Below are positions 16,468 through 28,643 of a stretch of DNA of 64,000 nt, one piece after another. The stretch covers positions 1,116,001 through 1,180,000 of the forward strand of contig NZ_CP101823.1 in NCBI RefSeq assembly GCF_024498175.1. Reading direction: 5' to 3'. Under the pieces are notes generated by a model. The model saw nothing but the letters and a program-made list of their open reading frames with translations, was not told the origin of the DNA and did no database searches. Origin of the DNA: Haloplanus salinarum. GTDB taxonomy: Archaea > Halobacteriota > Halobacteria > Halobacteriales > Haloferacaceae. Every line of letters begins with the position of its first letter. The stretch's first letter is position 1. A program made the translations under genes and the position numbers.

Positions 16468-16914
16468 ATGGTAAAGAGTACGGTGCGGTTTCCCGAATCG
16501 GTGGTCGGGGAAATCGAAACGCTCGTCGAGGAGGACCGATTCGAGAGCAAATCGGAGTTCTACCGCTTCTCGACGGATTACGTGTTGAACCAGGTCCTCG
16601 ACGATTACGAACCCGAGACCATCGACTACGCGGAGATCAAATCGGAGGTGATGCCGGAGGCGGAACGCGAACTCCGAAGCGACGCCGACACGGACCACCC
16701 GCCCTTCCTCGAATCCGTCTCGTTCGTCCGTCGGCTGGCGCTCCGCGGGAAGTTCAACGACGCGGAGGACTTCATCGACCACCAGTACGCCGCCGGCGAC
16801 CGGCACGCCATCCTCCTCGAGGAACTGCTCCGCCTGTATCGGGGCGACGTGACGGCCGACGCGCCGGCCGAACCGTCGGAACGCGACCGTCAGCCCGTCG
16901 AACGGGACCGGTGA
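16468..16914 (+). CDS. Ribbon-helix-helix DNA-binding protein
   Basis: 148 aa. Residues 1-45 form a MetJ/Arc-type RHH domain: strand VKSTVRFPESVV, helices EIETLVEEDRF and SKSEFYRFSTDYVLNQVL. The remaining 100 residues are helical and charged, with a C-terminal Arg/Asp tail. Likely a transcription factor acting as a dimer. It has its own TATA box and is followed after 12 bases by a small zinc-finger gene, suggesting a two-gene unit. Confidence 0.82.
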   Translation: MVKSTVRFPESVVGEIETLVEEDRFESKSEFYRFSTDYVLNQVLDDYEPETIDYAEIKSEVMPEAERELRSDADTDHPPFLESVSFVRRLALRGKFNDAEDFIDHQYAAGDRHAILLEELLRLYRGDVTADAPAEPSERDRQPVERDR

Positions 16915-17266: not shown

Positions 17267-18400
17267 CTACATCGACGGCCCGACGCGGTTGATCGCGAAC
17301 TTCGTGAGGCCGTGGCGCTCGGTCGCCGTCCGCCCGCCGTCGGCGACGCGCCGGAGTTCGTCGAGCAGTCCGTCGGGGGTCGTCGACCGCGCGTCGACGT
17401 CGACGTCGTCCGGGAGGATCCGCGCCGTCTCGCCGTCGCCCGTCACCTTGAGCACCGGAACGATGGGGTGCCCGCTCGGGATACCCTCGGCGGTGACGTG
17501 AACGACGACCGAGGCGCCGGCGGCCGCGAGCGCCGTCGTCGCCTCCTCGAAGCGGGAGGGTGTGTCGACGACCGCGAGCCCCTCGTCGACCGTCACCCGG
17601 TCGCCGTACTGGACGAACTCCTCGACCGGCGCCGATCCCCACGAGCCGACCACCTCGTCGAAGGGGAGGTCGGCCGCCCGGCGGACCAGTCCGCGGACGT
17701 TCCCCGGTTCGTCGGCGGTCCGCTCGGCCGCGGCGCGCAGTCGCTCCGCGACCGGGTCGCTGGCCGCGCGGTCGGCCGCCGCCTCGGCGTGGGGAGCGAG
17801 CCGTTCGGTGCCGGCGACGGCGACTGTCGCCCCGGCGTCGCGGAGCGCGTCGACCGTCTCGCCCACGACGGGGTCGGCAACGTCGCGGGTCGACGCCGCG
17901 AGGTCCGACCCGACGACGCCGACGGTGAGGTCGCCGAGCGACGCCTCGCTCCGGTCGGCGGCGGCCGCCGCGGCGAGGTCCCGCGTCGCCTCGGTGCCCG
18001 CCTCGATGCAGGCGTCGGAGCCGCCGACCTCCTGGATCGATAGTTCGCGGACCGGGACGCCGTGGTCCGCGACGGCCTCGGCGAACGGCCCGCTCTGGAG
18101 GTGTTCACACCCCAGCCCGACGACCGTCGCACCCGCGAGGTTGGGGTTCCGGGTGACGTTCAGCAGCGTCCGCTCGGTCTGATCGTGGTCGGCGCCGATC
18201 TGTGCACAGCCGTGGTCGTGGGGCGCACAGACGGCCCCGTCGACGGCGTCGGCGATGCGCTGGGCGACGATGTGCGAACAGATCACCGAGGGCACGACGA
18301 GAACCCGATTGCGAACGCCGACGCCCTCGTCCCGGACGTAGGCCGCAAGCGGCGCCGACGACGGGTCGGCCGCGTCGTCTGAGCGCGTGGGCGCCGACAT
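17267..18400 (-). CDS. UxaA-family large subunit B (keeps HGC/GLGCE motifs)
   Basis: 377-aa relative of the altronate/galactarate dehydratase and sulfolactate sulfo-lyase large subunits. It retains the first family motif set: APHDHGCAQIGADHDQT, NPNLAGA and VVGLGCE (about residues 57-105). The family block ECGGSD-x-xSG-x-x-ANP is absent, replaced by VGVVGSDLAASTRDVADP, and the TTGRG segment is lost. It is the last gene of a three-gene coupled operon; its start overlaps the SAF gene stop by one base. I infer a heteromeric enzyme with subunit A. Confidence 0.78.
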   Translation of the reverse strand: MSAPTRSDDAADPSSAPLAAYVRDEGVGVRNRVLVVPSVICSHIVAQRIADAVDGAVCAPHDHGCAQIGADHDQTERTLLNVTRNPNLAGATVVGLGCEHLQSGPFAEAVADHGVPVRELSIQEVGGSDACIEAGTEATRDLAAAAAADRSEASLGDLTVGVVGSDLAASTRDVADPVVGETVDALRDAGATVAVAGTERLAPHAEAAADRAASDPVAERLRAAAERTADEPGNVRGLVRRAADLPFDEVVGSWGSAPVEEFVQYGDRVTVDEGLAVVDTPSRFEEATTALAAAGASVVVHVTAEGIPSGHPIVPVLKVTGDGETARILPDDVDVDARSTTPDGLLDELRRVADGGRTATERHGLTKFAINRVGPSM

Positions 18401-18714
18401 CAGGCCACCTCCCCCTCGGCCTCGGCGACGTCGCCGCGCCCGCGCCGGCTCTCGGCGTTGTGCGTGTGGACCCACTCGCCCGGCGCGATGGCCTCGGTCG
18501 CCTGACCGATGACCTCGTCGTACTTGACGACGGCGTCGCCGGGCTCGAACGCGACCAGGGCCACCTTGTGCCCGAACGGGACGTCCTCGACGACTTCGAT
18601 CCGTTCGCCGTCGTACGGAATCGTCGTACCGGCCGTCAGGTCGTCGATGGCCGTGACCACGTTGTCCTCGGCGGCCATGTGGAGGCCACACCCCCCGAGC
18701 ACTTCGCCTTTCAT
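18400..18714 (-). CDS. UxaA-type SAF-domain small subunit
   Basis: 104-aa SAF domain equivalent to the N-terminal domain of UxaA/GarD or to SuyA: HMAAEDNVVTAI, FGHKVALVAFEPGD, IGQAT and the terminal WVHTHNAESRRG, where the histidines are family positions. It starts at ATG 18714 overlapping the stop of subunit A by four bases and ends overlapping the start of subunit B by one base, so all three subunits are probably made together. The very C-terminus is a charged tail. Confidence 0.82.
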   Translation of the reverse strand: MKGEVLGGCGLHMAAEDNVVTAIDDLTAGTTIPYDGERIEVVEDVPFGHKVALVAFEPGDAVVKYDEVIGQATEAIAPGEWVHTHNAESRRGRGDVAEAEGEVA

Positions 18715-19898
18715 ACCCCACCCCGCAGTTCCGCGAGTTCGTTGGGCTGGAGTTCGTTGATCGCGAACTCCTCGAGGCGGCGACGCTCGGCGGCCGTCCG
18801 CTCGCCGCTCGCGACCGACTGGAGGGTCTCGTAGATGCGGTCGCCCACGTCGTCGAGCGACTCGCCGTCGAGGACCGTGCTCGCGTCGACGTCCATGTTG
18901 TTCGCGAGGCGCTCGGCCGTCTTCGGGTTCCCGGTCACCTTGATGACCGGCGCGATGGGGTTGCCGGTCGTCGAGCCGCGACCGGTGGTGAAGGCGACGA
19001 CCTGGGCGCCCCCGGCTACCTTGCCGACGACGCTCTCGACGTCGTAGCCCGGCGTGTCCATCAGGACCAGTCCGCCGCCGACCGGAAGCTCCTCGGCGTA
19101 GTCGACGATGCCGCGGACCGGCGTCGTCCCGCCCTTGGTGATCGCTCCGAGGCTCTTCTCCTCGATGGTCGTCAGGCCGCCCTCCTGGTTGCCGGGGGTG
19201 GGCTGGGCCCCACGGAGGTCGACGCCCATCAGTTCCGCCGCCGACTCCCGTCGGTCGACGCGTTCGAGGAGCCGTTCCCGGACCGACTCGTCGACACAGC
19301 GCTCCGCGAGGATGTGCTCGGCGCCGATGAACTCGGGGGTCTCCGAGAACGTCGCGGTGCCGCCGTCCTCGACGAGGCGGTCGCAGGCGACGCCGACCGC
19401 CGGGTTCGCGGCGATGCCGCTGGTCGCGTCCGAGCCGCCACACTCGACGCCGAACCGGAGTTCGCTCACGTCACACTCGACGCGCCGGCAGTCGCCGATC
19501 TCGCTCCACAGGTCGCCGGCAGCCTCGGTCCCGGCCTCGACGGCGGCGGTGGTCCCGCCGGCCTCCCTGACCGAGAGCGTCTCGACCGGCCGCCCGGCGG
19601 CGGCGACGCCGTCCGCGATCTCGTCGGCGTCGATCCGCTCGGTGCCGAAGCCGACGACGAGCGCCGCGCCCACGTTGGGGTTTCGCCCCACGCCCGTGAG
19701 CGTGCGCTCGATCTGCTCCCTGGCGGCCGCGGGCGGATCCCGCCCCATCTGGTGTGGGGTAGACCGGACGTTCTCCCCCGCGCGGTCGGCGATCTCGTCG
19801 GCGATGGCCGACGCCGCGATCGATACCGGCAACACCGCGACGTAGTTCCTGACGCCTGCAGGGCCGTCTGACCGTCGGTAGCCCTCGAAAGTCGACAT
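18711..19898 (-). CDS. UxaA-family large subunit A (keeps ECGGSD motif)
   Basis: 395-aa UxaA-family protein, first gene of the operon. It retains GVECGGSDATSGIAANPAVG (about 145-165), FIGAEHILAERC, PTPGNQEGGLTTIEEKSLG, VLMDTPGYD and TTGRGSTTGNPIAPVIKV. The motifs conserved in subunit B are missing: the HTxGC position reads STPHQMGRDPP and the GLGCE position reads VGFGTERID. This suggests catalytic residues split between two paralogues. Family members dehydrate sugar acids (altronate, galactarate) or cleave sulfolactate; the substrate here is unknown. Confidence 0.82.
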   Translation of the reverse strand: MSTFEGYRRSDGPAGVRNYVAVLPVSIAASAIADEIADRAGENVRSTPHQMGRDPPAAAREQIERTLTGVGRNPNVGAALVVGFGTERIDADEIADGVAAAGRPVETLSVREAGGTTAAVEAGTEAAGDLWSEIGDCRRVECDVSELRFGVECGGSDATSGIAANPAVGVACDRLVEDGGTATFSETPEFIGAEHILAERCVDESVRERLLERVDRRESAAELMGVDLRGAQPTPGNQEGGLTTIEEKSLGAITKGGTTPVRGIVDYAEELPVGGGLVLMDTPGYDVESVVGKVAGGAQVVAFTTGRGSTTGNPIAPVIKVTGNPKTAERLANNMDVDASTVLDGESLDDVGDRIYETLQSVASGERTAAERRRLEEFAINELQPNELAELRGGV

Positions 19899-19978: not shown

Positions 19979-20308
19979 CTACTGCTGATAGCGCCGCTCG
20001 TCGTCGCGGTCGAGGCCCGCGTGCCCGCTCGCATCCTCGTACGTGTCCTCCAGTTCGCCGTACAGGTACTCGTCGTAGGTCACGTCGTAGGCCCGCCGGA
20101 GGTGGAAATCGAGGTTGCCGGTGTCGACCGTCGAGCGGTAGAGGGCGTGGATCGCCCGCCGGACGAGTTCGCCCTCGTTCGGCGAATCGAAGACCGCCGA
20201 GAGCATCGCGAGTTCGTTGCGGGTCTCCCGGTCCAGCTCGACGGTGACGTCGTCGCCGATGGCGCTGTATGCGTCCCGTACGTCCGCGTTGAGTCGGTCG
20301 AGGCTCAT
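19979..20308 (-). CDS. Small haloarchaeal protein, possible RHH-type regulator
   Basis: 109 aa. Residues 18-60 read VTVELDRETRNELAMLSAVFDSPNEGELVRRAIHALY, a strand-helix-helix pattern like a ribbon-helix-helix domain. The second half is acidic and rich in Tyr (YDEYLYGELEDTYEDAS). I do not recognise a named family with certainty. It is transcribed alone toward the binding-protein gene. Confidence 0.6.
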   Translation of the reverse strand: MSLDRLNADVRDAYSAIGDDVTVELDRETRNELAMLSAVFDSPNEGELVRRAIHALYRSTVDTGNLDFHLRRAYDVTYDEYLYGELEDTYEDASGHAGLDRDDERRYQQ

Positions 20309-20383: not shown

Positions 20384-22219
20384 TCACGCGAAGGGGTTCT
20401 CGAGCTCCGAGACGCAGGGGAACTGATCGGCGTCGTCCGCGGGCTGTGATCCCTGTGGCCACTGGGGTTCGAGGTCGGCGTCCGGGGGGTAGTGGAGGTT
20501 ACCGTCGCCGTCCCAGCCCCAGCCCTCGTCCTCGAGGAGCTGTCTGGCCGCCTCCACGTTCGCGCTCGGCGACTCCGCGATCCGTGTGAGGTTGTCGTCT
20601 CCCGGATACCAGGGATGGCTGCTCGTGAACGGGTCGGCGTACATCGTCGCCTCGGAGTCCCCGTACAGCGACGTCTGGTTGATGTTGTCGCGGTCGATCA
20701 TCTGGGAGAACGCCATCCGGAATTCGCGGAACTTGCTGGGACCGAACTGACACTGCGGGGAGATGAAGTACGGCGTGAACCCCTGTGTCGTGATGACCCG
20801 TGCGGAGTCGCCCATGTCGCTTTTGATTCGGTCGGCCAGCGAGGGAGTCGTCGTCAGGAGGACGTTCAACTCGTTGTTGGTGAACGCACGGTACGCCGAT
20901 TGACTGCTGTCGAACACCTGGAACACCAGATCACCCTCGGGATCGAACTTGGGATGGTCCGAGAACGGCTCCATTCCCATCAGTTGACCCTGCTCGAACG
21001 ACGTGATCTGGTACGGACCCGACCCGACCCAGGGGTCGTCGAAGTCCGTGGGGTTCTCCTCGGCCCCAGCCTCCTGCCACGCGTCCTTCGACAGGATGCC
21101 CCACGACGGGATCAGCACCGTCTCCATCGTCGGCGTCGGGCCCTCCATGTTGAACCGGACCGTCGAGTCGTCGACCACCTCGATGGATTCGTATCCGGGA
21201 TCCGTCGCCCAGGGGTACGCGCCGCTTCGTGCCTGTTCGGCCAGGAACTCGAACGTCCACTTGACGTCCTCGGCGGTGATCTGATCCCCGTTGTGGAAGG
21301 TGGCGTCACGAAGCGTGAACGTGAGCTGCTGGCCGTCGTCGGACACCTCGTAACTCTCGGCGAGGCAGGTCACCAACTCGAAGTTCTCGTTGTACATCAA
21401 CAGCGGCGAGTACACCGTGTTGGAGAAGCCGTATATGGGGCTCGCACCGGTCGCCTGCTGGTAGATCGTGGTGTCCAGCCAGATGGCGGGGACGTTCGTC
21501 ACGAGGCTGTCGTTGTCGCCGGTCGGCGACGACTTGATGAGCGGGATGATACCGGTCTCCATCAGCCCCATCTCACCGACCCCGGCCACGTCGATGGTGT
21601 CCGTTCGCATGGCCCCGTACTGCATTCGGACCACGGTCGGGATGATCCCGACGTCCTCCGAGAGGATACTGTGTGCCTGGTTGACGAGTTCCTGTCGCTC
21701 CTCGCGGGAGCCGGCGGTGAGATGTTGGTTCGCGTACTCGGAGTACTCGCAGTTGGCGTAGTTCGACGGGTTCCAGTTCGAGTTCTGCCCCGCCGCGTGG
21801 ATGTGATATTTGAGGGTCAGCTCCCGCGGATCCAGACGCGCCGGTCGGAGCTCGTAGCCGCCGTACGAGAAGTGCCACTCCCGGGTGTCCTGGCTTTCGC
21901 CGTTGATCCCGGCCGAGAGCGATGTCGGGTTGAGCTCCAACTCCACGCCGAGGTCCTGAATGTCGTTCTGAATGATCGAGGTCGCGTCCTCGAAGAAGTT
22001 GGTCAGCGGCCCTTCGTCGGACCAGTAGTTGAAGATTATCGACGGCACGCGTTCGCCCAGGTCGGCGCTACCGCCGCCGCCGTCGCCACTGCCGCCACCG
22101 CCGCCGTCGCCGCCGTCGCCGCCGTCACCGCCGGATCCGCCACAGCCCGCGAGGGTCATACCCGAGGCGACGCCGAGCGCCTGTAGCATCTTTCTTCGAC
22201 CGATGGTGTCGTCTGTCAT
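20384..22219 (-). CDS. ABC transporter substrate-binding lipoprotein, SBP_bac_5 type, apparently circularly permuted
   Basis: 611 aa from ATG 22219. Tat-like signal IGRRKMLQALG and lipobox LAGC (about 7-26), then a Gly/Ser/Asp linker to about 52. The segment normally found at the C-terminus of peptide/nickel-binding proteins comes first (residues 80-230: QDLGVELELN, NWNPSNYANCEYSEYA, EERQELVNQAHSILSEDVGIIP). The segment normally at the N-terminus follows (260-320: VYSPLLMYNENFELVTCLAESY, LTFTLRDATFHNGDQITAEDVKWTFEF), then GSGPYQI (399-405) and AARQLLEDEGWGWDGDGNLHY (557-577). It is divergent from the HTH_10 regulator at 22617; permease and ATPase genes lie beyond it. Confidence 0.85.
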   Translation of the reverse strand: MTDDTIGRRKMLQALGVASGMTLAGCGGSGGDGGDGGDGGGGGSGDGGGGSADLGERVPSIIFNYWSDEGPLTNFFEDATSIIQNDIQDLGVELELNPTSLSAGINGESQDTREWHFSYGGYELRPARLDPRELTLKYHIHAAGQNSNWNPSNYANCEYSEYANQHLTAGSREERQELVNQAHSILSEDVGIIPTVVRMQYGAMRTDTIDVAGVGEMGLMETGIIPLIKSSPTGDNDSLVTNVPAIWLDTTIYQQATGASPIYGFSNTVYSPLLMYNENFELVTCLAESYEVSDDGQQLTFTLRDATFHNGDQITAEDVKWTFEFLAEQARSGAYPWATDPGYESIEVVDDSTVRFNMEGPTPTMETVLIPSWGILSKDAWQEAGAEENPTDFDDPWVGSGPYQITSFEQGQLMGMEPFSDHPKFDPEGDLVFQVFDSSQSAYRAFTNNELNVLLTTTPSLADRIKSDMGDSARVITTQGFTPYFISPQCQFGPSKFREFRMAFSQMIDRDNINQTSLYGDSEATMYADPFTSSHPWYPGDDNLTRIAESPSANVEAARQLLEDEGWGWDGDGNLHYPPDADLEPQWPQGSQPADDADQFPCVSELENPFA

Positions 22220-22616
22220 ACCATCCAAACCGACTGTCGAATGGTGGATAAGCGTTCACCCAAATATATGGAATTAGTAACAGATAGGATATATAATCAC
22301 AGAAGTGCGGAATAACGTCGGCTTCGGTTGGACGTCCGACCACGGAGTGGAGCAACGACCTGTTGATTCGGTTGGCATCGGCGATGGGTCGGCCCCGTCC
22401 GAGTGCGTACCGTTCCGGCGGACGACGGGCCGATCTCCCCCGGATCTGGTGGGTGCAGATCGATATCGGACATCGAACGAATAAATCGCGTCTCCGAATA
22501 CGATTGTTTTCTTTTGTCCACATTTGACTCGTGCTAAGGGTAATTGATCCGCAAAAAATCAACTGTTTGGTCACCGAATCGATATCGATAAATACCCCAG
22601 ACACCAGGAACGGTTG
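22220..22616. promoter_or_regulatory. 397-bp divergent regulatory region
   Basis: Separates the binding-protein gene (minus) from the HTH_10 regulator (plus). It is markedly AT-richer than the surroundings. TATA-like stretches occur at 22258-22272 (CCATATATTTGGGT on the minus strand, about 45 bases before the binding-protein start) and 22288-22300 (GGATATATAATC). Two copies of ATCGATATCG (22459-22468 and 22578-22587, the latter part of a 12-bp perfect palindrome), each followed within 13 bases by an ATAAAT, could be operators. No gene is seen in it. Confidence 0.5.
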
Positions 22617-23348
22617 ATGTGGGAGATACTGATCGCCGTTAGACACACCGGATGCCCGATCTCCGATACGACCGCCCACAGCCCGGACGTGCATCTGCAA
22701 AACCTCGCACGAACACGGAGGTCGGACGAGGGGGACGGCAAACGCCTGTTGAGGGTTCGAAGCGACAGGGCCGACGCGATCGAGGAGTTCGTGACCCGGT
22801 TCGGCGACCACGACCGGTCGATCATGATCGACACGTTCGGTCAGCAGAGTCAGACACGGTACATCACGACTCACATCGAATACGACGAGGACAATCCGAG
22901 CATCTCGACGCTGGTTCAGCGAAACCAGTTCTATCATCGGGGCGTGGTTCCGGTGAGCAGGGGCATCGAACACTGGATCGTCTATACCGACGAGTTCGAC
23001 GACGTGACACGGCTGATCGACGACGTCGAGGCCAACGACAACTCGATAGAGAAATACCGAATTCGCGAGATCGGGAACGGGGAGCCGATAGAGTCCTTCG
23101 AGTACTCGACGGTCCTGTCGAAGCTGACGACGAAACAACAGTCGGTCTTCGAGACGGCGCTCGAATCGGGATATTATTCGGACGACGAGAAGACCACCCT
23201 CGAGGACCTCGCCGAGGAGATCGGCCTCCACCAGACGACGGTGTGGGAGCATCTCAGCAAGGCGGAGAACACGATCCTGACCGAGGTCGGTACGCGACTG
23301 TTCGCCGACGACGACGACGGTCGGTCGCCCCAACTCATCAATACGTAG
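22617..23348 (+). CDS. Bat-type HTH_10 transcriptional regulator
   Basis: 243 aa from ATG 22617 (a TTG one codon earlier is also possible). The C-terminal HTH_10 domain is LTTKQQSVFETALESGYYSD, TLEDLAEEIGLHQTTVWEHLSKAENTIL (about residues 165-215). The N-terminal part (MWEILIAVRHTGCPISDTTA) resembles the ligand/sensor half of bacterio-opsin-activator-like proteins. It is divergent from the binding-protein gene and converges on the permease operon, so it probably regulates the peptide-type transporter in response to its substrate. Confidence 0.85.
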   Translation: MWEILIAVRHTGCPISDTTAHSPDVHLQNLARTRRSDEGDGKRLLRVRSDRADAIEEFVTRFGDHDRSIMIDTFGQQSQTRYITTHIEYDEDNPSISTLVQRNQFYHRGVVPVSRGIEHWIVYTDEFDDVTRLIDDVEANDNSIEKYRIREIGNGEPIESFEYSTVLSKLTTKQQSVFETALESGYYSDDEKTTLEDLAEEIGLHQTTVWEHLSKAENTILTEVGTRLFADDDDGRSPQLINT

Positions 23349-23432: not shown

Positions 23433-24428
23433 TCACTCCTCGCTTTTGATCGCGACACGCGGGTCGATGACGCTGTACAGGATGTCGATGACGTAGTTCC
23501 CGATGATGACCCAGATCGCGGCGACGATGAACACGAACTGGACGACCGGATAGTCCCGGGCGAGAACCGAATCCACGAGGAGTTTTCCGATCCCCGGCCA
23601 GTTGAAGACGACCTCCACGAGCACCATCCCGCCCAGCGCACGCGTCATGGAGACCGGATAGAGGGTGATGACGGGGAGCGAGGCGTGCTTGATCAGCTTC
23701 TTGAACTTGAGCGACCGGTTGAGACCGGTGATGCGGTGGTAGTACAGGAAGTCCTGTCCGAGGGTCTCGACCACGTTAGTTCGCATGATGAGCGAGGGTA
23801 GCGTGATGAAGAAGGTCATCACCGTCACGAACGGCAGGAAGTAATGCATCCAGAAGTCGGCCGTGCCGAACATCGCGTAGAAGGGTTGGCCGCTCAGCGC
23901 TCGGGTCGTCTCGGTGGAGAGCATCCCGGAAGACGGGAAGACGTCGAACTGCGAGGCGAATATCGTCAGCAGGATGATCCCGGAGAGAAAGACCGGCACC
24001 GTCTTGAACGTGGAGACGACGACGATGCCGTACTTCTCGAAGCGCGTTCCGCGGTTGTTCCCCATCGCGGCGCCGAGCACGCCGCCGACGAGATACGAGA
24101 CCGTCACCGCCGGCGCGATCAGGATGAACGAGTTCAGCATACGCGGGCGGACGAGTTCCCACACGTTCGTCCCGTAGACGAACGACTGGCCGACGTCGGC
24201 CGACAGCATGTTGCGGATGTAGTTCAGATACTGTACGTGGAGGGGTTGGTTGAGCCCCCACTTCCGTTCGAGCACCGCGATCTGTTCGGGACCGAGTCCC
24301 TGCTGGAGCATGATGCTCGAGTAGCTCCCGGGCATGAACCGGAAGAACAGAAAGAGCGCCGAGGCGACGAGATAGATGAGTACGGCTGTGATGGCGGTTC
24401 GCTTGAGAATGTATTTTGCTTGACTCAT
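23433..24428 (-). CDS. Peptide/nickel-type ABC permease (DppB-like)
   Basis: 331-aa permease with six helices; N-terminal AKYILKRTAITAVLIYLVASALFLFFRFMPGS is typical of DppB/OppB and the coupling motif around DFLYYHRITGLNRSLKFKKLIKHA precedes the last helices. It is the last gene of the minus-strand operon, 60 bases after the DppF-like ATPase. The binding-protein gene follows after the convergent regulator. Confidence 0.9.
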   Translation of the reverse strand: MSQAKYILKRTAITAVLIYLVASALFLFFRFMPGSYSSIMLQQGLGPEQIAVLERKWGLNQPLHVQYLNYIRNMLSADVGQSFVYGTNVWELVRPRMLNSFILIAPAVTVSYLVGGVLGAAMGNNRGTRFEKYGIVVVSTFKTVPVFLSGIILLTIFASQFDVFPSSGMLSTETTRALSGQPFYAMFGTADFWMHYFLPFVTVMTFFITLPSLIMRTNVVETLGQDFLYYHRITGLNRSLKFKKLIKHASLPVITLYPVSMTRALGGMVLVEVVFNWPGIGKLLVDSVLARDYPVVQFVFIVAAIWVIIGNYVIDILYSVIDPRVAIKSEE

Positions 24429-24488: not shown

Positions 24489-25538
24489 TCAGTCATCGAC
24501 CTGTGCCGGGGTGGGATCCATCGAGCTATCATGGTCGTCGTGATCGTAGTAGAGGTGACACGCGACGCGGTGTTCGTCCGCGTCGGGGTCGACGAACCGC
24601 GGTTTCTGGTCACAGATCTCCATTCGCTCCGGACATCGATCCTTGAACCGACACCCCACGGGCATATCGACCGGATCGCCCGGCTCGCCGCGAAGCTCCG
24701 TGTGCTCCCGGTCGTGGAGCGGGTCCGGGACCGGAATCGCCTTGATGAGCGCCTGCGTGTACGGATGCTTCGGGTCCCCGACGATATCCTTCGTGTCCGC
24801 GCGCTCGACGACCCGTCCGAGGTACATCACGTTGACACGGTCACAGACGTAGGAGACCGTCGAGAGGTCGTGGGAGACGTACACCATCGACACGCCGAGG
24901 TTCGTCGACAGGTCGTCGAGTAGTTCGAGGACTGCGGCCTGGGTGGAGACGTCCAACATCGAGACCGGCTCGTCGGCCAGGATGACGTCGGGCTCGGTGA
25001 TGAGCGCCCGTGCGATCGAGACGCGCTGTTTCTCCCCGCCGGAGAGTTGATGCTGGTAGCGATCCAGATACTGCTCCGGCGGGTCGAGTTCCACCCGTTC
25101 CAGGGTCCGTCGGATGCGTTCCTCCTTGTCGTCGAACCCGTGGATCGCGAGGGGTTCTCTCAGCACGTTCCTGACCGTGAATTTCGGATTGAGCGAGTTG
25201 AAGGGGTCCTGAAAGATGATCCGAACGCGTCGCCGGAACTCCTTCCAGTCCTCCTTGTCGAACGAGGCCGTGGATCGCCCATCGAAGACCAGTTCCCCGC
25301 CCGTCGGTTCGTACAGACCGATCAGCGTCCGCAACAGCGTACTCTTTCCACAGCCGCTCTCGCCGATCACCCCCTGGACCTGGTTCTCCGAGAGGGACAG
25401 CGAGACGTCGTCGACGGCACGGATCTTCGGACTCTCCCGCCGCAGGAGCTGGTTCGTGACCTTCTCGCGGAGACCCGACGCCGCGTCGAAATGCTTGCTG
25501 AGGTTTCGGAGCTCGAGGACCGGGTCGTCGGCACTCAT
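24489..25538 (-). CDS. Peptide-type ABC ATP-binding protein (DppF-like)
   Basis: 349 aa. Walker A GESGCGKSTLL, signature LSGGEKQRVSIARAL, Walker B VILADEPVSMLDVS, and the OppF-type C-terminal domain with a cysteine cluster (GCRFKDRCPERMEICDQ, later VACHLYY) that in related ATPases binds an Fe-S cluster. Its ATG overlaps the preceding ATPase stop in an ATGA junction, so the two ATPases are co-translated. Confidence 0.92.
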   Translation of the reverse strand: MSADDPVLELRNLSKHFDAASGLREKVTNQLLRRESPKIRAVDDVSLSLSENQVQGVIGESGCGKSTLLRTLIGLYEPTGGELVFDGRSTASFDKEDWKEFRRRVRIIFQDPFNSLNPKFTVRNVLREPLAIHGFDDKEERIRRTLERVELDPPEQYLDRYQHQLSGGEKQRVSIARALITEPDVILADEPVSMLDVSTQAAVLELLDDLSTNLGVSMVYVSHDLSTVSYVCDRVNVMYLGRVVERADTKDIVGDPKHPYTQALIKAIPVPDPLHDREHTELRGEPGDPVDMPVGCRFKDRCPERMEICDQKPRFVDPDADEHRVACHLYYDHDDHDSSMDPTPAQVDD

Positions 25539-26617
25539 GGTTCGCCCTCGTTGGTTCCCTGTGGCGTCGTGGGGTGCTCGTCACGCCGTTCCGAGCGGTA
25601 TCGTTCCCGCTTTTGGAGTTCGTCGGCCGCGAGCTCGGTCATCTCCGAACTGCGGATACACGCCACGCGGTGGGTCGGATCGTCCTCGACCGATTCTTGC
25701 GGCGGTGCGCCCGCACGACACTCCTCGACGCTCCAGGGGCACCGGTCGGCGAACGTGCAGTGATCGACCGCCGCTCGCAACTGGGGTGGTGTCCCCTCGA
25801 TGACACTCAACTCGCTGTCTGGATCGCGGATGTCCGGGAACGCCTGCTGGAGGAGGATCGTGTAGGGGTGCCGGGGTTCGAGAAAGATATCCACCGTCTC
25901 GCCGGTCTCCGCGACCTGGCCCCCGTGCATCACTGCGATCGATTGGCAGTTCTCGAACACGACGGAGATGTCGTGGGTGATCAGCAGCATGCTGATGTCC
26001 CAATCGTCGCGCAACTCGTTGAGATGCTTGAGGATCTGGTCCTGCATGATCACGTCGAGCGCCGTCGTCGGCTCGTCCGCGATGATCAGCGACGGTTTCA
26101 ACAGGAGCGACATCGCGATGAGGGCCCGCTGTTGCATCCCGCCGGAGAACTGGTGGGGGTAGTCGTGGATGCGACTCTCGGGCAACCCGACGACCTCGAA
26201 GAGTTCCTCGAAGTGATCGAGCACCTCCGTTTCGGTCATCGACGTGTGGGCCTGGGCGATCTGAACCGCCTGGTCGCTCACGCGGGTGAGCGGATCGAGG
26301 CTGTTCATCGACGCCTGTGGGATGAGCGCGACTTCCTCCCACCGAACGGATCCGTTGAACTCCGCCTCGGAGTAGTCCTGAACCTCCTCGCCGTGGATCT
26401 TGATCGTCCCCGAAGTGATCTCACCGTTCTCGTCCAGACCGCCGATGATCGACTTCGCGATCGTGCTCTTCCCACAGCCGCTCTCCCCGACCAACCCGAA
26501 GTACTCGTTTTCGTCGATGGAAAACGACGCGTCCGTGACGGCGTGGACGTCGCCTTCGCCCTCTTCGGTTCGGTACGTGATCGTCAGGTCTTCGATTTCG
26601 AGAACTGGTTCCGTCAT
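25535..26617 (-). CDS. Peptide-type ABC ATP-binding protein (DppD-like)
   Basis: 360 aa from ATG 26617 (MTEPVLEIEDLTITY); an in-frame extension to 26647 would overlap the upstream permease and is rejected. Walker A GESGCGKSTIAKS, signature FSGGMQQRALIAMSL, Walker B LIIADEPTTALDV. The C-terminal cysteine-containing OppD-like domain (CTFADRCPWSVEECRAG, VACIRSS) is present. It begins 4 bases after the permease stop. Confidence 0.92.
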   Translation of the reverse strand: MTEPVLEIEDLTITYRTEEGEGDVHAVTDASFSIDENEYFGLVGESGCGKSTIAKSIIGGLDENGEITSGTIKIHGEEVQDYSEAEFNGSVRWEEVALIPQASMNSLDPLTRVSDQAVQIAQAHTSMTETEVLDHFEELFEVVGLPESRIHDYPHQFSGGMQQRALIAMSLLLKPSLIIADEPTTALDVIMQDQILKHLNELRDDWDISMLLITHDISVVFENCQSIAVMHGGQVAETGETVDIFLEPRHPYTILLQQAFPDIRDPDSELSVIEGTPPQLRAAVDHCTFADRCPWSVEECRAGAPPQESVEDDPTHRVACIRSSEMTELAADELQKRERYRSERRDEHPTTPQGTNEGEP

Positions 26618-26621
26618 GATG

Positions 26622-27554
26622 TTAGCCGAGTTCCGCGTCTTGCCCACCCGTCGCTTCGTAGCCTCGTCCGATGAGATACACCGAGAGCACCGTTATCGAG
26701 ATCATGGCTCCCGGGGAGAGCGTCCACCACCACGCCTCCGAGGCCAACCCGGAGTCGTAGGCGTTCCGTATCATCGTCCCCCACGCCGGGAGGAACGGAT
26801 CGGTCATCCCCAGAAACGCGAGTCCCGCCTGCTTGAGGATCGCGAGGCCGATACCCATCGCGAAAAACAGGGCGGCCATACTCGCGACGTTGGGGATGAT
26901 GTGTTTCGCGATGATGCGTGGCGTACTCGCACCGCTCGTCTTGGCCGCCATGATGTACTGTCGCTCCTTGAGCTGGAGCACCTGTGATCGGAGGATGCGG
27001 GCGATGGCCCGCCACAGGATGAGTCCGATCACCAGAATGGCCGTATAGAACCCCGTCTCGAAGAAGGTCAACAGGACGATCGCGAACGGAATGAAGGGAA
27101 TGCCGTAGACGAAGTCGGTGAATCGCATCAGCGCGCTCTCGACCACACCCCCGACGTACCCGGCGGTGATGCCGACCGTGGCACCGATGGTGAGCATGGT
27201 TCCGCCACCGAGGAGGCCGATGATCACCGTGGGACGTGCTCCGTAGAGGACCCGCGAGAGGACGTCCTTGCCGCGCTCCGTGGTCCCCAACGGATGTGAC
27301 ACCGAGGGTGATTCGAGTCGTTCCAGCTCCCCGCTTTCGTCGTACTGCTGGGCGTCGTAGTCGTACGGGGCCACCATCGGACCGAAGATACCCAGAAGCA
27401 GGACGAACACCGCGACGAAAAACGCCACCTTCGTGATCCGTTCCGAGAGGAGTTCCCCGATCCCGGCACGAAAGTTCCGCACCAGGTAGTGATCGCGTAC
27501 CTTCCGTAGGGAGCTCGATCGGCCCAATCGGCGCAGCGAGTCGACGTACTTCAT
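26622..27554 (-). CDS. Peptide/nickel-type ABC permease (DppC-like)
   Basis: 310-aa permease, first gene of the minus-strand operon. N-terminal helix after SERITKVAFFVAVFVLLLGIFGPMVAPYD, the family motif HPLGTTERGKDVLSRVLYGARPTVIIG at about 85-112 and the coupling region ARILRSQVLQLKERQYIMAAKTSGAS. Gene order C-D-F-B with the binding protein separate is unlike the usual A-B-C-D-F. The 280 bases upstream (27555-27834) should hold its promoter; a minus-strand AT-rich ATATACTGGG lies near 27640. Confidence 0.9.
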   Translation of the reverse strand: MKYVDSLRRLGRSSSLRKVRDHYLVRNFRAGIGELLSERITKVAFFVAVFVLLLGIFGPMVAPYDYDAQQYDESGELERLESPSVSHPLGTTERGKDVLSRVLYGARPTVIIGLLGGGTMLTIGATVGITAGYVGGVVESALMRFTDFVYGIPFIPFAIVLLTFFETGFYTAILVIGLILWRAIARILRSQVLQLKERQYIMAAKTSGASTPRIIAKHIIPNVASMAALFFAMGIGLAILKQAGLAFLGMTDPFLPAWGTMIRNAYDSGLASEAWWWTLSPGAMISITVLSVYLIGRGYEATGGQDAELG

Positions 27555-27834: not shown

Positions 27835-28494
27835 TCACCCGTCGGCGATGATCTCCAGCTCGGAGCGAAACGCCGCCCGGTTGTCGATCCCGACGATCCG
27901 CGAGTCCGGCCGCCCGTCGGCACAGAAGATCACTGTCGGCACGACGGCGACCTGATAGCGGTCCCCGACAGCCGCGTGGCAGTCCTCGCTACAGACGGCC
28001 GCCAGTGCGACGTCGTCGGGGATCGCGCCGTTCGCTCGCAACGTCTCGAACGTCGTCCGGACCGAATCACAGGGATCACAGTCGTATCCCCAGAAGTAGA
28101 GGACTGCGGTCGGATTGCTGGCGAGGAACGCACCGACCTCCTCACCGCGGAGGGCGGTGAATCCCTCCGGAGCCCCGTCCGTGGCGGGGGAACGTTCGAC
28201 CCGCCTCACCGCGATGGCCGCGGCGGCCGTCGCATCCGTCGACAGGTCGGTCATCCGGCCGATCGCCGATGCGGTCGCGAGGAGGTGACGCTCCGCAGTC
28301 TCGGCGTCCGTGTCGGATTCCACGCCGGCACAGGCCGCCACGAGTTGCTCGTCGATCGGATCGTTCCCTGCCGCCAGCTCCGTCCGGACGGCGCTGCGCC
28401 GTTCGTGAAAGGGCTCCGTCAGTTCGATCGAACCGCCGTCGTCCTCGACGATTCCCGATCTTCGAAGCGCACCCAACAGTCTCTCTGGTTCCAT
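27835..28494 (-). CDS. Thioredoxin-fold protein with helical N-terminal extension
   Basis: 219 aa from ATG 28494 (an upstream ATG at 28521 is possible). The C-terminal 100 residues are a thioredoxin domain: FWGYDCDPCDSVR with redox pair C139/C142 and cis-proline P186 in VAVVPTVIF. A second cysteine pair C168/C172 (VCSEDCH) is unusual. The first 110 residues are a helical Ala-rich domain (AERHLLATASAIGRMTDLS) of unknown role. It is transcribed alone, divergent from mutY. Confidence 0.8.
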   Translation of the reverse strand: MEPERLLGALRRSGIVEDDGGSIELTEPFHERRSAVRTELAAGNDPIDEQLVAACAGVESDTDAETAERHLLATASAIGRMTDLSTDATAAAAIAVRRVERSPATDGAPEGFTALRGEEVGAFLASNPTAVLYFWGYDCDPCDSVRTTFETLRANGAIPDDVALAAVCSEDCHAAVGDRYQVAVVPTVIFCADGRPDSRIVGIDNRAAFRSELEIIADG

Positions 28495-28643
28495 GAACGT
28501 TATTCGAAATTTCGTTCGCATATGTAAATCTTTCCCGCATTCGTGTGGCTGATTCCGGTAGTCGAATGACCGGGCCGTTCGTCGACGGTGTCTCGGAGGG
28601 AGGAACCAGCACGCCTAAGCAACCGCACCGCCACCGTCCGACG

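Follow-up and report, generated by a model that had tools for sequence, protein, structure and literature searches.

Conventional substrate-binding proteins (SBPs) of the SBP_bac_5 family, or cluster C, carry both termini in the N-lobe. Venus-flytrap capture of the solute and its delivery to DppB/DppC is the known mechanism of the class, and in DppA residues Arg383 and Asp436 form salt bridges to the dipeptide (PMC12136057). A natural permutation has been described elsewhere among binding proteins: the Treponema lipoprotein TpMglB-2 (Tp0684), a permuted 'Type Ic / Cluster Bc' protein, binds glucose and undergoes a normal conformational change (PMC4990184). Since TpMglB-2 remains functional, a permutation does not by itself have to impair a binding protein. 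The open-access literature searched yielded no account of a naturally permuted SBP_bac_5 protein.

The stretch analyzed here, called the window, comprises 64,000 nucleotides of Haloplanus salinarum. An earlier note on this DNA had placed an SBP_bac_5 protein with reversed segment order at 20384-22219, and the open reading frame was confirmed there, on the minus strand, with 611 aa. The features of the gene and of the adjacent importer genes are the following.

20384..22219, minus strand: SBP_bac_5 lipoprotein gene, 611 aa, read as circularly permuted (open reading frame; Pfam; swapped profile order)
22142..22219, minus strand: twin-arginine signal peptide (GRRKML) and lipobox LAGC, residues 1-26, with putatively lipidated Cys26 (read from the sequence)
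22064..22141, minus strand: Gly/Asp-rich tether, residues 27-52 (read from the sequence)
21554..22048, minus strand: native C-terminal module, now N-terminal, residues 58-222 (profile match to PDB chains beyond residue ~355; module model on DppA 337-488; shuffle test)
21749-21751, minus strand: codon of Cys157
21503..21553, minus strand: junction of the former C-terminus with the former N-terminus, residues 223-239 (flanked by the two profile matches)
20480..21502, minus strand: native N-terminal part plus middle module, residues 240-580, closing with the A..LL.EAG helix (Pfam 282-576; model 185-525 on DppA 1-344)
20387..20479, minus strand: clade-specific C-terminal tail, residues 581-611 (conserved WP.GE.P....FPC)
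20414-20416, minus strand: codon of Cys602, in the tail
22614..23348, plus strand: HTH_10 (bacterio-opsin activator type) regulator, divergent, between the permease operon and the SBP gene (PF04967)
23433..24428, minus strand: DppB-type permease (PF00528, PF19300)
24489..25538, minus strand: DppF/OppF-type ATPase (PF00005, oligo_HPY; best NCBIfam match PRK11308, under its cut-off)
25535..26647, minus strand: OppD-type ATPase (best NCBIfam match PRK09473, under its cut-off)
26622..27554, minus strand: DppC-type permease (PF00528, OppC_N)

Pfam assigned the protein to SBP_bac_5 (PF00496) with 174.8 bits against a curated cut-off of 32.4. The match covers residues 282-576 only, corresponding to positions 2-287 of the 368 in the profile; about 225 residues of the mature protein ahead of it have no Pfam explanation, and the last part of the profile is absent downstream. 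Because the profile is not matched in collinear order, the protein is filed as a circularly permuted variant and not as an ordinary SBP_bac_5 member. A signal peptide and lipobox ahead of the permuted start, as claimed earlier, were found: the twin-arginine motif and the LAGC box with Cys26 are followed by the Gly/Asp-rich linker, and in the family alignment all 33 of the 33 relatives keep the RR and AGC columns unchanged. The segment boundaries of the earlier note (80-230 and 260-577) proved accurate to about 20 residues, profile and structure giving ~58-222 and ~240-580, but its statement that the protein ends exactly at the cut did not hold, as a clade-specific tail of about 30 residues (DADLEPQWP...FPC...) follows beyond that point. 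Of 54 clade members, 47 have both Cys157 (in the moved module) and Cys602 (in the tail) and the other 7 have neither, and a Cys157-Cys602 disulfide fastening the new tail is predicted from this pattern. Repeated independent losses of the pair were considered and rejected: the seven members without it form one clade, with one joint loss.

The order of the segments was then compared with that of proteins of solved structure. With the single window protein as phmmer query, residues 267-567 matched residues 46-336 of Listeria CtaP (5isu), and residues 81-195 weakly matched residues 358-465. A family profile (A1), built from 33 relatives, was run against all PDB sequences. In AppA (1xoc), profile positions 232-571 match chain residues 17-350 (E 8.6e-56) and positions 68-205 match residues 364-495 (E 3e-9); E. 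coli DppA likewise gives two swapped stretches (E 5e-51 and 2e-13). Among the PDB matches listed, the best stretch of every other chain also starts close to the chain N-terminus, and no permuted protein was seen among solved structures in the best 60 profile matches or the best 50 structure matches listed. A second, independent profile, made of conventional proteins only, placed its positions 379-506 at residues 78-211 of the window protein (39.7 bits) and its positions 56-368 at residues 262-587 (190.5 bits). For the N-terminal segment this profile gave 43.7 bits, and the best of 500 shuffles reached 4.9. It can be seen that the reversed order claimed in the earlier note is recovered from both directions, each time as two significant stretches. 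On the same conventional profile the matches of permuted proteins end at 352-368 and start at 351-379, with no part of the family profile missing. A search with duplicated queries, which the earlier note had proposed, agreed with this order. Joined copies of several relatives produced one unbroken match across the junction (for the duplicated Halomonas member, profile 31-508 in one piece with 361 bits, against 263 and 101 bits for the separate pieces), as would be expected of a permutation and not of two unrelated sequences, while the duplicated window protein remained in two pieces, probably due to its extra C-terminal tail.

Structure prediction led to the same arrangement. The AlphaFold2 model of the window protein (74 sequences) is one two-lobe fold with a mean pLDDT of 95.8, a pTM of 0.92 and all residues at 70 or above. 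Sequential structural comparison to the PDB placed only model residues 177-559 (residues 229-611 of the window protein), and in cluster C proteins it was the first two thirds of the chain that took up model residues 181-559; model residues 185-525 superpose on DppA 1-344 with a Z of 20.2, and on cluster C chains the main part reaches Z 20-23 over 314-343 residues. When folded by itself (pLDDT 79), the N-terminal module matched C-terminal thirds instead, namely residues 337-488 of DppA (1dpp) and 350-495 of OppA (1ola) with Z of about 10.9, and cluster C chains at Z 10-11 over 133-167 residues. This comparison in two parts, full model and module alone, was used in place of a topology-independent aligner. 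Foldseek TM-scores of the full model were at most 0.53 among the matches listed, as expected when a third of the chain is not alignable in order; for DppA, sequential alignment gave TM-scores of 0.43-0.47. The proposal of a permutation that keeps the two-lobe fold is in this way supported by a single confident model. From the two superpositions the cut lies near DppA residue 340 (mature numbering), in the C-lobe and shortly before the ligand-binding Arg383 (precursor numbering); it falls inside domain III of OppA, which we take from the 1994 structure to span residues 271-486.

The PepT-type (Dpp/Opp) importer set of the window consists of two BPD_transp_1 permeases and two OppD/OppF-type ATPases, and the same set is found in relatives; most permuted SBP genes lie within Dpp/Opp operons. 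The order is mostly SBP-DppB-DppC-OppD-OppF in bacteria and in a more distant haloarchaeal clade, and mostly DppC-OppD-OppF-DppB-SBP in the clade of the window, where the window adds the divergent HTH_10 gene before the SBP gene. Adjoining DppC is a thioredoxin-family protein with a CDPC motif (27835-28521, minus strand), homologues of which occur near the same operon in many relatives and in Halobaculum (L275). On the other side, a small frame of 109 aa (19979-20308, minus strand) lies immediately downstream of the SBP gene, and a frame of 148 aa (16468-16914, plus strand) reads like a ribbon-helix-helix regulator, with no match in Pfam.

We consider it very probable that the gene encodes a natural circular permutant of the cluster C/SBP_bac_5 fold, acting as the SBP of the Dpp/Opp-type (peptide/opine/nickel, PepT) importer encoded by the adjacent DppC-OppD-OppF-DppB genes. 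In this reading a short linker bridges the ancestral termini, and the protein now begins and ends in the C-lobe, at the loop that follows the A..LL.EAG helix and directly precedes the strand and loop with Arg383 in DppA. A gene duplicated in tandem, fused in frame and later shortened at both ends may have given rise to such an arrangement. The lipid anchor would now sit on the C-lobe instead of the N-lobe and, by analogy with the class, the anchored protein would capture its solute between the lobes and pass it to the DppB/DppC channel driven by the two ATPases. A haloarchaeal frame elsewhere (L220; G002:C1:2361500-2367500, minus strand) holds, head to tail, two full SBP_bac_5 domains of the conventional order and a dockerin-like tail, so the duplication-fusion intermediate of the usual permutation model can exist.

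The ligand is probably not a dipeptide, to judge from the sequence. No clear Arg or Asp is found at the positions aligned with Arg383 and Asp436 of DppA, in a profile alignment with gaps close by, and the protein scores 40.9 bits on the DppA equivalog NF043070 against a cut-off of 1005. Downstream of the SBP gene, at 17267-19898 (minus strand), a split UxaA/GarD-like set stands in a row, made up of two proteins of the galactarate/altronate dehydratase family and one separate SAF-domain protein; it may hint at the substrate. Because of these genes we lean, with low confidence, to a ligand that may be a hydroxy- or sugar-acid. A firm assignment from the neighborhood was rejected, since the neighbors differ between loci (FAH hydrolase, aldehyde dehydrogenase, CoA-transferase, thioredoxin).

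The search for haloarchaeal homologues of the same order, also proposed earlier, revealed a large family there and members in bacteria. In 391 halobacterial genomes searched at E <= 1e-30, full-length and collinear matches of the window protein were obtained in at least 63, a lower bound since only the best few candidates per genome were scored. A scan of species genomes added Halomonas/Vreelandella, Paracoccaceae, Natronospirillum, Spirochaetaceae, Clostridia, Nitriliruptoria, Acidimicrobiia and Anaerolineaceae; the permuted order is thus found in Halobacteria and then in Pseudomonadota, Spirochaetota, Bacillota, Actinomycetota and Chloroflexota. A plasmid search returned members from Nitratireductor and Roseomonas, whose order was checked and is permuted, with a Burkholderia protein as conventional control. 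When all frames fetched were subjected to a two-module order test, 158 were permuted and 53 conventional, with none ambiguous (some frames are one gene fetched twice, and five have the main module only). The other two SBP_bac_5 proteins of the window's genome are conventional by this test, and permuted genes are a minority among their paralogues; they carry the plain annotation 'ABC transporter substrate-binding protein'. A MAG contig labelled Halorhodospira (L109) carries a permuted SBP near-identical to those of Spirochaetaceae MAGs (L106), which would reflect recent transfer or mis-binning.

In a tree of the re-ordered and concatenated modules, one branch splits permuted from conventional proteins (support 97/81, 98% of bootstrap trees), and a single origin of the main permuted family is therefore favored by the sequences. 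The distances of the two modules correlate with r = 0.94 (shuffled maximum 0.16), indicating that both modules travelled together. A quick tree of the C-module alone needed 3 changes instead of 1, probably due to the short length of this module.

Permuted genes have a recognizable Pfam signature, in which PF00496 stops at ~284-287 and the stretch 281-362 of the profile, where detected, lies upstream. A second lineage was found by this signature: L222/L264 (G004:C6:108455-110092), with L223-L252 and L265-L272, the relatives of L222 spanning two family codes within one order. In L222, profile positions 345-521 precede 35-328; with the A..LL.EAG helix on the N-terminal side, the cut is one helix earlier than in the main family. 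The conventional sisters of this lineage, one of them in the window's own genome (L253, G000:C1:~3325.6-3327.3 kb), have the normal order and are 48-50% and 39% identical to it in the two modules. Permuted and conventional members group together in one clade with 100/100 support, outside the main permuted family, and the permeases and ATPases of their operons are 54-69% identical to each other, against 27-44% to those of the window. These sequence comparisons clearly indicate that the second lineage was permuted independently of the main family, and evidently its permuted SBP replaced or became the conventional one while the operon stayed. The case also implies, as far as conservation tells, that an SBP with swapped segments can serve permeases whose orthologues work with a normal one. 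The junction is near-seamless: the conventional tail YAPWADAYTTVGGG and the start PELVATLGAD give YAPWADTFTKLEGSAELVGDLGSD. Four members (L267, L268, L269 and L270) are permuted, yet group with the conventional sisters and not with the other permuted ones (96/92); a third event or a reversal would account for this placement, as would a tree error. A single clade of all permuted members of this lineage is not what the free tree prefers, which has two changes, but one clade was not rejected (p-AU 0.08).

Other histories could in principle give a protein of this appearance. By domain shuffling, an SBP could have lost its C-terminal part and gained at its N-terminus the C-module of a different SBP, yielding a chimaera that only seems permuted; duplication-deletion between paralogous neighbors would produce it, and tandem SBP genes exist (L066, L138). 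However, the family fold is complete and has no doubled part, the profile matches of permuted proteins end and start at a single cut point, the two modules co-vary closely, and a single conventional orthologue is matched by the two modules of the second lineage (48% and 39%). We regard the chimaera as improbable for these reasons, although it is possible that the main family arose from fused parts of two paralogous SBPs rather than from two identical copies.

Pfam taken alone, with its one stretch, would also fit a protein of normal order with an unrelated extra domain at the N-terminus. Against this, the N-terminal segment matches the C-terminal third of SBPs by sequence and by fold, no other copy of that third is present in the protein, and the main module is followed only by the short tail. 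Normal order and an unrelated domain at residues 80-230, which the earlier note had itself named as the outcomes that would contradict it, are both excluded by these matches, and we give such readings practically no weight. An artefact of sequencing, assembly or gene rearrangement, or a pseudogene, is just as hard to credit: nothing beyond the oddity itself speaks for it, while the same order recurs in the 158 frames, which come from independent genomes across several phyla, are intact and keep their operon context. Circular permutation remains by far the preferred reading of the window gene.

SBP_bac_5 is among the most used binding-protein families, and models built on the normal topology mishandle its permuted members. 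The second lineage amounts to a natural experiment, in which orthologous importers of haloarchaea, including the window's own genus, use normal and permuted SBPs about 45% identical; it makes testable the origin of the permutation, the effect of the anchored lobe on docking and the tolerance of the folding pathway to new termini. For the building of biosensors, the conserved cut sites point to places at which a cluster C protein could be opened. A wider view can be offered only tentatively, and we think it rather less likely to be right than wrong as a whole: permutation would be recurrent and tolerated in cluster C SBPs, with at least two (perhaps three) independent events at neighboring C-lobe cuts, one of them in an orthologous operon whose permeases were retained; this repeatedly used cut would show where an SBP can be opened without harming docking; the move of the anchor from N-lobe to C-lobe may serve transport in surface-exposed archaeal lipoproteins; and the Cys157-Cys602 disulfide would re-fasten the tail in the window's clade.

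Compared with DppA, OppA, AppA and NikA (cluster C/PF00496), the window protein is homologous in both segments and shares the predicted two-lobe fold, the operon with two permeases and two ATPases, and export as a lipoprotein or to the periplasm. In contrast to them, its N-terminal two thirds and C-terminal third are swapped, its new termini are predicted to lie in the C-lobe, and the ligand residues of DppA are not evident. TpMglB-2 resembles the window family as a natural, tethered permutation of an ABC binding protein, but it belongs to type I cluster B, has three N-lobe strands moved and occurs mostly in treponemes and Gram-positive bacteria (PMC4990184). The window protein showed no homology to cluster B (MglB-type) proteins, Pfam up to E 10 giving SBP_bac_5 only. 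Tethering, proposed as the reason for the permutation of TpMglB-2, is weakened as a general reason by a Halomonas member (L108) with a plain signal peptide and no lipobox. The second permuted lineage (L222, L264, L266 and others) is like the window family in its fold family, sort of operon and C-lobe cut region, and unlike it in its earlier cut, its nesting among conventional sisters and its separate origin. Permutation is already known in another SBP class (cluster B); its breadth, single cut and independent repetition are what is notable in SBP_bac_5.
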